Assembly (NCBI RefSeq): GCF_000767465.1
Contig: NZ_CP009291.1
Location: 1,753,501 to 1,817,500, forward strand
Source of the DNA: Novosphingobium pentaromativorans US6-1
Lineage (GTDB): Bacteria > Pseudomonadota > Alphaproteobacteria > Sphingomonadales > Sphingomonadaceae
DNA: 64,000 nucleotides
Direction: 5' to 3'
Numbering within the stretch: the first letter of the stretch is position 1; the number at the start of each line of letters is the position of its first letter. The notes under the pieces were generated by a model that did no database searches, was not told the origin of the DNA, and was given only the letters and a program-made list of their open reading frames with translations. Position numbers and translations under genes: made by a program. Positions 1 through 7,208 of this stretch are shown in pieces.

Positions 1-681
1 ATCATAGGCCTGGAGCTGGACCGGCCTCAGCGGCACCTGTCCGGAGATGATCTTGAGGAAATGGTCCTGGTCCTCGATCCAGATGAGTGCCTCGCCCTCG
101 ACTTCGTGGCCCTGCTCATAGCCGAGCGTCGCCAGCTGGTGGCGCTTGGCCTCGAAGTAGCCATCGACGTCTGTAGGGCAGATCTCGGCGAGCGCATCGC
201 GCAGCCCTTCGGCAGTGGGCTTGAAGCGGCGCCCTTTTCGATAGTCGAAGGACATCCAGATGTGGTTGATGTCCGTCCGCCCCTCGGCCTCGGCGACGCG
301 TAAGCGGCGTAGGATTTTGGCGAGCTCCTTGCCGAGAAGATGGATGACATAGCCCATGAGCTCGGTCCCGTCCGGACGCATCCGGAAGACGACGATAGCG
401 GACGGCCCCCGGTCCTTCGCCAGACGCTCCATCGCCGACAGGCGCGCGCGCACCGCCCCGCTCTCGCCGGCCATGCATTTGAGCTGGACCATGCATGCGC
501 GCGGCTCGCGTTGATCAAGCGTTTCCTGCGGCGTTCCTTTCATCGGAAACTCAACACGAAAATCCCAGCCTGCCCGATCACGGCTCGTACGGCTGCAGAT
601 CAGCTTAGCCTGGGCGCACAGTTTGGCGAAGAGGTTCTCGCCGGCTTCGCCCAGTTCATCGGGGGTCAAGGCTCCGGTCAT
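1..681 (-). CDS. PD-(D/E)XK-like nuclease domain protein, 3' end beyond window
   Basis: This frame is open from an ATG at 681 to the window edge (227 codons), so the C-terminus is missing. The N-terminal 70 residues carry a pattern typical of restriction-endonuclease-fold proteins: GEAGE around residue 15, GWDFRVEF with Asp40, then VQLKC with Gln66 and Lys68. This is compatible with an E...D...(E/Q)xK active site, so DNA cleavage is the likely activity. The rest (for example a predicted helix-rich stretch after residue 100) I do not recognise. It is the third gene of a minus-strand operon, beginning 8 nt after the GIY-YIG nuclease stop. A defence role is inferred from its neighbours. It could instead be a DUF4365-like protein of unknown function. 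Confidence 0.6.
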   Translation of the reverse strand, partial: MTGALTPDELGEAGENLFAKLCAQAKLICSRTSRDRAGWDFRVEFPMKGTPQETLDQREPRACMVQLKCMAGESGAVRARLSAMERLAKDRGPSAIVVFRMRPDGTELMGYVIHLLGKELAKILRRLRVAEAEGRTDINHIWMSFDYRKGRRFKPTAEGLRDALAEICPTDVDGYFEAKRHQLATLGYEQGHEVEGEALIWIEDQDHFLKIISGQVPLRPVQLQAYD

Positions 682-689
682 GGCGCCCG

Positions 690-1526
690 TCAATTCCTGT
701 TGAGGCCCATCGCGCGGCTCTGGAGCTTGTGCTTCCAGAGCTGCTCGACTGCGACGATCTCCTCATGGGTCGCCGACGATCCGCTGACCTCGAGGATGCT
801 GACCTGATAGTCGCTGGGCTCGCTGCTCTTGAGACCAATATTGCCGCCATGTCCGTCCTGGGCATAATTCTGCCAGCGGCCGAAAAAGCCGGCGTCGCCA
901 GTTGCCGAGCCGACGTATTGCTCTCTGGTTTTAGCCGACGTGAGGAGATAGACGCCGCGTGCCGCGCGTAGGGCAGAGACCCAGGTCGCTGGCAGCCCCT
1001 GCACGTCGGAGATGTTCGCGATGAAGTGCGTGTATCCCGGAAACGCATCTTCCCGGAACGCGCGGGTCAGCTCGACGATTGGCTTATTCTGTCGATCCGG
1101 ACGCTGTACCCAGGACCTGGCGCCCGCCCCCCATTCGATCCACAGCCGTCCAATATAGAGTTCAAGTTCGCCGACCCGAGCCGTCTCATAGAGGTCGAGC
1201 TCGCCATTGCTGAGAGTCATGCCAGGAACGAGATGGAGCGGATCGATCCACGAAGCATCGACCGTGCCGACGCGCCGGGCTGTATAGATCCCTGCGAACA
1301 GCGTTCCACCGGTCGGCGGAGCCACGAAGCTCGCCCAGAAGGGCACCGCGAGCCCGGCGCGGTTGCCAATCGTCTGCACCCGTTGATACTCTTCGAAGGA
1401 AGGCCGGTCGTCCCGCCAAAGCAAATAGGGCGTGCGGCCGTTCGGCGCCTTCGTCTGGTGGCGGAGCAGACGGACCTGCCCGGCGGCGAGCCCCGCTTTC
1501 TCGAGCAGATCTGTGAATAGCAGCAT
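690..1526 (-). CDS. GIY-YIG nuclease domain protein
   Basis: A 278-residue protein. The C-terminal third is a GIY-YIG endonuclease domain: GVYLL at 191-195 (the GIY element), QYVGSA at 203-208 (the YIG element), the catalytic-type Arg217 in FFGRW, and Glu261 in VEQLWKHKL. The active site therefore looks intact and single-strand nicking or double-strand cleavage is expected. The first 185 residues form an unrecognised domain with many aromatic residues, possibly for substrate or partner recognition. The ATG overlaps the stop of the upstream TIR-like gene by one base (TGATG), which points to translational coupling. It lies 8 nt before the PD-(D/E)XK-like gene. The pairing with a TIR-like protein suggests anti-phage function, which is inference. 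Confidence 0.75.
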   Translation of the reverse strand: MLLFTDLLEKAGLAAGQVRLLRHQTKAPNGRTPYLLWRDDRPSFEEYQRVQTIGNRAGLAVPFWASFVAPPTGGTLFAGIYTARRVGTVDASWIDPLHLVPGMTLSNGELDLYETARVGELELYIGRLWIEWGAGARSWVQRPDRQNKPIVELTRAFREDAFPGYTHFIANISDVQGLPATWVSALRAARGVYLLTSAKTREQYVGSATGDAGFFGRWQNYAQDGHGGNIGLKSSEPSDYQVSILEVSGSSATHEEIVAVEQLWKHKLQSRAMGLNRN

Positions 1527-2749
1527 CAGAACCCCCTAATCTGCTGGACGAGGGTCGAGCGCGGCGGCTGTGTCACGCCAAAGGCTGCGGCGATCTCTCC
1601 CCATGCGGTTTCGAGCTCAGTCAGCCGCTCGTCCTCGCCCAAGCCCGCCAAAGTGAACTCGGCCGTGGCGCTAGGCTCAAGGGCCACCGGCTTGCCGCCC
1701 CACCGTGTGTCCGAGATCCAATGCAGCCCTTCGAGGCCGGTGGCACCGATCATGACATCGAACGGGCCTTTAGCGCCCTGCCGTTGCAGGACTGGTAGGT
1801 TCTCGTCGATGAAGTCATTGATATGCGAGATAAGCGCATCGGCGAAGAACAAGGCCCGATCCTCCCGATCGGCGATGAAAGGGTCGACGCCCCAAAGCTC
1901 GCCGGTGCTGCGAAACTGCATCACACAATTGGTCAGAGGCCTTTCACCTGATGCCCGCAGACTACCGCTGTAAACGATGAAACCGCCCTTGGTGGCACCC
2001 CAGCTATACCCCTGCGTCGGCCCCATGATCCGCGGGCGGACGCCATCTTGGACGGTCTCGCGCGGCGCCGACCAATGACGCGGACGAATGCGGACATAGC
2101 CGTAGGGGCCTTCGGTCAGGACTTTGGTGCCGGGCGCGCCATCCTCGTTGATCGTCAGTGGAGTGGCGGGATCGAACCACAGGGCCGGATCCGCGGGATG
2201 AGCGTACTGCCATGCCGGTGAGCTGGGCTCAGGCAGCGCCGGCGTTGCGACGGCGATCGATGCTCGCAGGGCCTCGCGCAGCGCGGACCGGAGCTTGTCC
2301 CGTTCCGTTCGCAAGTCCGCCGAGGGCGCGCCTTCCGGCAGATGGAAACTCATCGGCCCCCGCCGTCCGCGCATGTCGAACGGGAGCTGCTCGATGGTCG
2401 CCCCGGGATAGGCCGTGTTCCACACGGTGATAACGCGCTCGAGTCCAATTGCGCGCTTCGCATAGCCGAGTTCGATCAGAACGTTGGGATTGGCGATCGC
2501 CTTGCCGTTGGCCGCTACCGCGATCGGGGTGACGTCTCCGACGAAGACCTTGGCAGCCTCGATTTTGGCGAGGATGGTGCTGACGATATCCGGCGAGCCG
2601 GCGACACCCTTCGTATCGGAGGTAAGCTCGTGACGTTCCTCGAGTTCGGCATCCAAATCCTCGATTGCCAGCGCGAGGGCGTCGCGCACGATATTGCGAG
2701 TGACGCGCGGGTCGAGATCACTTTGCCAAGACCAGAAAATAGTACTCAT
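1526..2749 (-). CDS. TIR-like (SWQSD-type) nucleotide-hydrolase-fold protein
   Basis: A 407-residue protein, first gene of the operon. The start is placed at the ATG at 2749, followed by STIFWSWQSD, because an AAAGGGGGG ribosome site precedes it; the frame stays open upstream to 2836 without such a site. The N-terminal domain (about 1-135) has SWQSD at 7-11, KGVAGSP at 47-53, VFVGDVTP at 68-75, NPNVLIELGYA at 87-97 with a conserved-looking Glu93, and PFDMRGRR at 123-130. This arrangement resembles TIR or TIR-like NAD-consuming domains of prokaryotic immune proteins, where the Glu in (N/D)VxxELG is catalytic. The C-terminal 230 residues are unrecognised and may be a sensor. It is probably the trigger or effector of a nuclease-linked defence operon. 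The family call is from motif memory only. Confidence 0.6.
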   Translation of the reverse strand: MSTIFWSWQSDLDPRVTRNIVRDALALAIEDLDAELEERHELTSDTKGVAGSPDIVSTILAKIEAAKVFVGDVTPIAVAANGKAIANPNVLIELGYAKRAIGLERVITVWNTAYPGATIEQLPFDMRGRRGPMSFHLPEGAPSADLRTERDKLRSALREALRASIAVATPALPEPSSPAWQYAHPADPALWFDPATPLTINEDGAPGTKVLTEGPYGYVRIRPRHWSAPRETVQDGVRPRIMGPTQGYSWGATKGGFIVYSGSLRASGERPLTNCVMQFRSTGELWGVDPFIADREDRALFFADALISHINDFIDENLPVLQRQGAKGPFDVMIGATGLEGLHWISDTRWGGKPVALEPSATAEFTLAGLGEDERLTELETAWGEIAAAFGVTQPPRSTLVQQIRGF

Positions 2750-4145: not shown

Positions 4146-6133
<1,988 letters not shown>

Positions 6134-6626: not shown

Positions 6627-6731
6627 TTTATCAATGCCGGATGCCATAACGGGTCCGGTTGGACAGAGGGCGTCGGCTCTTGGTTCCCGGCGCCTCTCAC
6701 GCCCAGATTGCTCAACAAGGAGGATTTGGAA
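6627..6731 (+). promoter_or_regulatory. ROSE-like RNA thermometer leader of hsp20
   Basis: The leader contains GC-rich inverted segments and ends with TTGCTC (6708-6713) just upstream of AAGGAGG (6718-6724). ROSE thermometers of small heat-shock genes in alphaproteobacteria end in a UYGCU element that pairs imperfectly with the ribosome site and melts on heating. The UUGCU/AAGGAGG layout fits. The upstream hairpins were not folded computationally. Confidence 0.5.
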
Positions 6732-7208
6732 ATGAGAACTGCATTTGATTTGACCCCCTATCGCCGCTCGACGGTCGGTTTCGATCGGCTCTTCGATGCG
6801 CTCGAGAACAGCTTCCGCGCCGAGACGCAGGATGGCTACCCACCCTTCGACATCGTTCGCACCGGCGAGGACAGCTACCGGATCACTCTGGCGGTTGCCG
6901 GCTTCCGTCCGGACGAAATCGACATCACTGCACAGCAGAACCAGCTCGTCATCTCCGGTCAGAAGACCGAGAAGGACGAAGACGGTGTTGAATTCGTTCA
7001 CCGCGGTATCGCTGCCCGCGCGTTCGAGCGGCGGTTCCAGCTGGCCGACTATGTCGAAGTGCGCGATGCGGATTATGAGCACGGCATGTTGACGATCTCG
7101 CTCCAGCGGATCGTCCCTGAATCGCTCAAGCCGCGCAAGATCGCCATCGGAAGCCGCGAGCATGTCAACGACGACACGCCGCAGCTGACTGAAGACAAGG
7201 CGGCCTAA
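6732..7208 (+). CDS. Small heat-shock protein, Hsp20/IbpA family
   Basis: A 158-residue cytoplasmic chaperone that holds unfolding proteins in large oligomers. The start is the ATG at 6732, which follows AAGGAGG; the frame is open further upstream. The alpha-crystallin domain runs from about residue 35 to 130: YPPFDIVRTGEDSYRITLAV, AGFRPDEIDI, then FVHRGIAARAFERRFQL and the late GMLTISLQR strand. The N-terminal MRTAFDLTPYRRSTVGFDRL is typical of class A IbpA-like proteins. The C-terminal PRKIAI provides an I-x-I-like anchor. Heat control is suggested by the upstream promoter and leader, and a hairpin follows. Confidence 0.93.
   Translation: MRTAFDLTPYRRSTVGFDRLFDALENSFRAETQDGYPPFDIVRTGEDSYRITLAVAGFRPDEIDITAQQNQLVISGQKTEKDEDGVEFVHRGIAARAFERRFQLADYVEVRDADYEHGMLTISLQRIVPESLKPRKIAIGSREHVNDDTPQLTEDKAA

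Follow-up and report, generated by a model that had tools for sequence, protein, structure and literature searches.

A TIR-like gene, a UzuA homologue and a DREN-type nuclease gene in close succession in Novosphingobium pentaromativorans US6-1: a probable stack of autonomous defence genes

The window analysed here is a stretch of 64,000 nucleotides from contig NZ_CP009291.1 of Novosphingobium pentaromativorans US6-1. At its left end lie three intact open reading frames, all on the minus strand:

1526..2749, minus strand: gene 1, a TIR-like protein of 407 aa (ATG at 2749, stop at 1526); residues 1-170 hold the TIR fold and residues 170-407 the C-terminal domain.
1526..1528, minus strand: the gene 1/gene 2 junction, TGATG, a one-base stop/start overlap that is also found between a tyrosine recombinase gene and UzuA in locus L101.
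690..1526, minus strand: gene 2, a UzuA homologue (Uzume) of 278 aa (ATG at 1526, stop at 690), with a GIY-YIG domain at about residues 191-278.
1..681, minus strand: gene 3, the first 227 codons of a gene for 513 aa (ATG at 681); residues 1-180 are a DUF4365/DREN-type PD-(D/E)XK nuclease.

The arrangement given in the preliminary description of this DNA, with the TGATG overlap followed by a gap of 8 nt between genes 2 and 3, is confirmed. To judge from this spacing, the three genes are presumably co-transcribed; a scan of the operon for promoters and terminators found signals at chance level. Reading the sequence to the left of the window, as had been proposed, completed gene 3, which ends at G000:C1:1752640 (L003:7140). 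Its relatives start at the same methionine (M1 in at least 90% of the aligned sequences). From about 8000 candidates for each gene, the database searches at E<=1e-3 returned at least 404 relatives of gene 1, 1089 of gene 2 and 57 of gene 3, and the closest metagenome relatives among these matches share 87%, 94% and 93% identity, respectively. Given these many relatives and the conservation of the motif residues, we judge the genes to be more than chance reading frames. A domain common to all three proteins was considered and rejected, with hhalign comparisons between their parts giving at most 0.9%.

The gene 1 protein contains the SWQSD and NPNVLIELGYA motifs, and residues S7-W-Q-S10, N87-P-N-V90 and E93 are unchanged in all 77 aligned relatives (77 of the 120 listed, from at least 404 matches). 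A TIR fold was found for the protein, in a fold search bearing mainly on residues 1-170, so the earlier view of gene 1 as TIR-like holds. The top structural match among the folds listed is the SfSTING TIR, and E93 may be the counterpart of the SfSTING catalytic glutamate. The Pfam TIR family is reached at E<=0.01 by 48 of the 77 relatives, the window protein itself falling below the Pfam cut-off. PDB sequence searches with the gene 1 and gene 3 profiles gave no chain at E<=1, and a further run gave two unrelated chains at E 1.2. In its fold, gene 1 resembles the CAP12/Pycsar effector TIRs and TIR-STING, but its C-terminal domain is of another kind, and no cyclase gene was noticed next to it. 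DNPH1 and the nucleoside 2-deoxyribosyltransferases score one unit below the SfSTING TIR as matches to gene 1, whose product may alternatively be an N-glycosidase that takes nucleotides other than NAD+ as substrate. A relative of gene 1 in Rhizobium etli (66% identity) starts 6 nt past a STAND NTPase gene that has a sub-threshold match to an Mrr-type nuclease.

Gene 2 had been described as a GIY-YIG nuclease with intact catalytic residues, and the operon as one that could not be matched to a named system. The first claim is borne out: the core residues G191, Y193, Y204, G206, R217, E261 and N278 are unchanged in all 30 aligned relatives (30 of the 120 listed, from at least 1089 matches), and the profile of the family matches I-TevI (1ln0) at E 0.056, the Pfam GIY-YIG match being sub-threshold (E 0.0038). 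The second was wrong for gene 2. The PADLOC UzuA profile PDLC03973 matches residues 2-278 of its 278 at E 2.6e-79, and the same profile is matched by relatives from L101 and L058; judged by this similarity, gene 2 encodes a complete UzuA and so belongs to a named system, Uzume. UzuA is catalogued as a defence protein in PADLOC. Uzume, reportedly introduced by Millman et al. in 2022, is a single-gene system, whereas UzuA here has a closely spaced gene on either side. Two published papers class Uzume among systems of unknown mechanism.

For gene 3, the nuclease proposed earlier was recovered as a PD-(D/E)XK fold by both hhalign and structure search. Its N-terminal domain aligns with the DREN/DUF4365 nuclease in hhalign at 93.6% (E 2.1e-7), while the other 42 of the 43 domain comparisons in the same set, some pairs of which were run both ways, reach at most 1.7%. 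Q66 and K68 are present in all 50 aligned sequences and D40 in at least 90% (49 of the 57 listed relatives plus the gene 3 protein). Q66 and K68 align with DREN Q62 and K64, and TmuRE carrying Q62A/K64A is reported to be inactive (PMC10810196). Gene 3 thus has the N-terminal nuclease type of SPARDA (DREN-APAZ with a short Argonaute) and the same D...E...QxK residues, but it differs in having no sequence-detectable APAZ and no Argonaute gene in cis. PADLOC found no APAZ in gene 3 at E<=0.5, where the same genome's own DREN-APAZ gives 8.7e-159; hhalign of the C-terminal part against APAZ gave 0.2%; and single-sequence profile tests against SIR2-APAZ, short Argonaute and TIR-APAZ were of low power. 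No short Argonaute gene stands beside gene 3. The genome has three at E<=1, each adjoining its own effector elsewhere, and the nearest on the same contig is about 640 kb away. Since there is no neighbouring Argonaute and the APAZ sequence tests failed, we do not file gene 3 as a SPARDA effector. In Foldseek, its first three matches are DREN-APAZ chains, and the alignment with DREN-APAZ runs over 543 columns (TMq 0.19). Because this match spans the whole gene 3 chain, whereas the VIA match is restricted to residues 1-180, a remote APAZ-like fold may be present. Separately, matches of gene 3 to PADLOC PDC-M02A (E 0.03-0.06) were taken as chance.

The short-Argonaute systems of this genome are DREN(DUF4365)-APAZ, SMEK-APAZ and SIR2-APAZ, and lie at G000:C1:1111673-1113118, C3:286052-287458 and C1:3141597-3142979 (L096, L097, L098).

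Beyond gene 3, the next gene on the same strand (L003:697-6717) begins 422 nt further on and encodes a protein of 2006 aa, which matches AAA_22 above the Pfam cut-off and NACHT below it; its residues 255-514 give an Avs1b-like match at E 2.8e-14. By eye, its N-terminus is nuclease-like. The anti-phage layout claimed for the operon is upheld in part: the similarities of UzuA and of this Avs1b-like neighbour point to a defence setting, but not to a widespread three-gene architecture, as the genome samples below indicate. On the other side, about 1.4 kb from the operon, a groES-groEL-like pair and then an Hsp20-like reading frame were noted by eye (window 4146-6133 and 6708-7208).

Co-occurrence was examined in genome samples, for gene 2 in the family, for genes 1 and 3 in family and class, and for gene 3 alone in the genus; the context of the nearest metagenome relatives falls outside these samples. 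Among 249 Sphingomonadaceae genomes, the window's own included, relatives at E<=1e-10 occur in 10 for gene 1, 12 for gene 2 and 7 for gene 3, and the three are found together, and adjacent, in the window's genome only. Pairs of these genes, each pair split between different contigs, occur in G200 (genes 1 and 2) and G112 (genes 2 and 3). The class sample, again with the window's genome, yielded gene 1 in 5 of 385 genomes and gene 3 in 4 of 385, non-adjacent in the other loci read: G354 carries genes 1 and 3 on different contigs, the contig of G516 ends just upstream of its gene 3 relative (57%), and G491 is outside the loci read. In the genus sample, gene 3 occurs in 1 of 119 genomes, the window's own. 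In these samples homologues of the three genes therefore rarely co-occur, which runs counter to the widespread new architecture envisaged earlier.

Matching plasmid records number 69 for gene 1, 387 for gene 2 and 21 for gene 3, many of them over part of the protein. NZ_CP121653.1 alone appears in two of the plasmid lists (40 of 69, 40 of 387 and 21 of 21 rows listed), and it carries relatives of genes 1 and 3 on opposite strands, about 7.4 kb apart. Scans of viral contigs with each of the three proteins confirmed no relative, and no description of the trio was found in the open-access literature searched. These results bear on the proposal of one obligate three-component anti-phage system, in which TIR signalling or NADase activity would be joined to two nucleases. 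The one-base overlap, the 8-nt gap and the complementary enzyme types would suit such a system; however, with the trio absent from every other sampled genome and each family found without the other two, we hold it to be quite improbable.

The main open alternative to a stack of separate genes is that genes 2 and 3 form a true two-protein nuclease system (UzuA with a DREN-like nuclease), in front of which the TIR gene has been added. Contigs of 13,629 and 17,076 bases appear with exactly the same sizes in the homologue lists of genes 2 and 3 (79/71% and 57/57% identity), where a length-jitter control predicts 0.04 such coincidences, and the gene 1 list shares none with either; the test used 120 of 404, 120 of 1089 and 57 of 57 matches, with the longest contig per cluster. 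Against this pairing, the UzuA loci read (partly by annotation labels) show a relative of gene 3 next to UzuA in the window's genome alone, and gene 3 relatives without UzuA occur in L010, L011, L059-L064 and L077, the majority being distant, at 24-56% identity. One more relative of gene 3, in L073, was not called as a gene and stands outside these counts. On balance, the two-protein system seems rather unlikely.

The neighbours of UzuA were then compared. Where UzuA has about 70% identity or more, its upstream gene abuts it in all 11 readable loci, and this partner is a tyrosine recombinase in nine, a 278-aa gene of unknown family in one (L004, UzuA 79%) and the TIR gene of the window in one. 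The recombinase-UzuA loci are L007, L012, L099, L100, L101, L102, L107, L108 and L109. All 8 plasmid records with UzuA at 60-80% have the tyrosine recombinase abutting upstream, as does the interrupted copy L007 (best segment 57%, others 81-82%), which was counted for its neighbour. From recombinase to UzuA there is a 0-nt gap or an overlap of 1 nt or 4 nt; the loci lie on sphingomonad plasmids and, in one case, on a contig. L012, L100, L107, L108, L109 and L007 have the same dehydrogenase and recombinase genes upstream; therefore, the nine loci represent four distinct contexts. Mutual identity among the recombinases of L012, L099, L100, L101 and L102 is 46-96%. In a FastTree phylogeny of 18 UzuA sequences, which omits L007 and L108 (the latter's integrase and GIY-YIG accessions are those of L107), the coupled copies, including that of the window, split from the others with support 0.92. 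Within the coupled group, the window's UzuA joins the L012 group at 0.77; support at other nodes is low and falls to 0.04.

Less similar UzuA copies have their upstream gene at 36 nt (L103), at 64 nt (L110) or in a 1-nt overlap (L111), and a simple gene caller found no abutting same-strand gene in L005, L006, L053, L054, L055 and L058. The family search listed 13 UzuA matches, one of which is the copy in the window. Long flanking sequences were taken for six new contexts (G200 C84, G220, G044, G217, G112 and G094), G200 C75 is the contig of L004 and was counted once, and the distant matches G202, G028, G162, G047 and G143 lie outside the neighbour reading. L056 (G217, with an internal stop) and L057 (G112, gene uncalled) were left unclassified.

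Relatives of gene 1 are linked to recombinases as well, lying immediately before tyrosine recombinase genes of a second family in L009, L013, L019, L047, L048 and L104. The L047 match contains one TGA, and L020, apparently the plasmid of L009, was not counted. The second-family recombinases of L009, L013 and L104 share 76-84% identity. Four of these loci, gene 1 relative and recombinase together, have the following coordinates:

L009:5995-8450
L013:5989-8441
L104:3995-6459
L048:1464-3922

In L010, positions 5715-5849, just before the gene 3 relative, give a 53% match to the end of the second-family recombinase.

Such links raise the possibility that the genes serve mainly as accessory functions of mobile elements and not in immunity. 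UzuA relatives right after tyrosine recombinases in nine loci, gene 1 relatives right before another recombinase family in six, and the typing of 9 of 11 plasmid records among the recombinase-linked loci as conjugative would all agree with this. So would the ParB-domain and Toprim genes left of the operon: ParB-domain and Toprim/DUF7146 genes were seen about 13 kb beyond gene 3, outside the window (L002:1326-4357), which suggests an integrated plasmid-like element. UzuA is, however, listed as a defence protein, and the recombinases tried from both families have no match in the window or L002 at E<=0.01; we regard a mainly accessory role as very improbable. Defence genes are often carried on mobile elements.

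The partner genes of UzuA also allow a more integrated interpretation, which we put forward as doubtful. UzuA would be a movable 3' module, and the gene upstream of it would be swapped at a constant stop/start junction; within the sphingomonad clade, the tyrosine recombinase would be the older partner, replaced here by the TIR enzyme. The partner would add a second activity to the same trigger, and the trio would act as one regulated pathway, with a TIR alarm or NAD loss and two nucleases.

Because the readable relatives carry the genes apart, a stack of interchangeable defence parts is the most likely explanation, and the operon is probably, by a modest measure, a cassette against mobile genetic elements in which three autonomous effector genes are expressed together. 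The separate occurrence of the families in the loci read, the reading frames and spacing, the family to which gene 2 belongs, the folds at the N-termini of the gene 1 and gene 3 proteins and the conservation of active-site-type residues are observed directly, while defence role, substrates and sensing are what we infer from them. In such a stack, gene 1 would be a TIR enzyme that cleaves NAD+ or a related nucleotide upon infection, with the C-terminal domain as its likely sensor. Gene 2 would be a UzuA GIY-YIG endonuclease cutting invader or host DNA, and gene 3 would encode a nuclease of the DREN type in which the C-terminal part may replace APAZ and Argonaute as sensor or activator. Two points weigh against the stack: the close packing of the trio hints at coordinated expression, and the shared-size contigs hint at a possible pairing of genes 2 and 3 elsewhere.

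Taken together, the earlier observation is confirmed and its interpretation partly supported, with partner exchange at UzuA as the new point. The locus cautions that defence genes packed closely together do not have to form a single system. UzuA partner exchange, together with a DREN-type nuclease that has no detectable APAZ or adjacent Argonaute, would offer handles on how solo nucleases are triggered.
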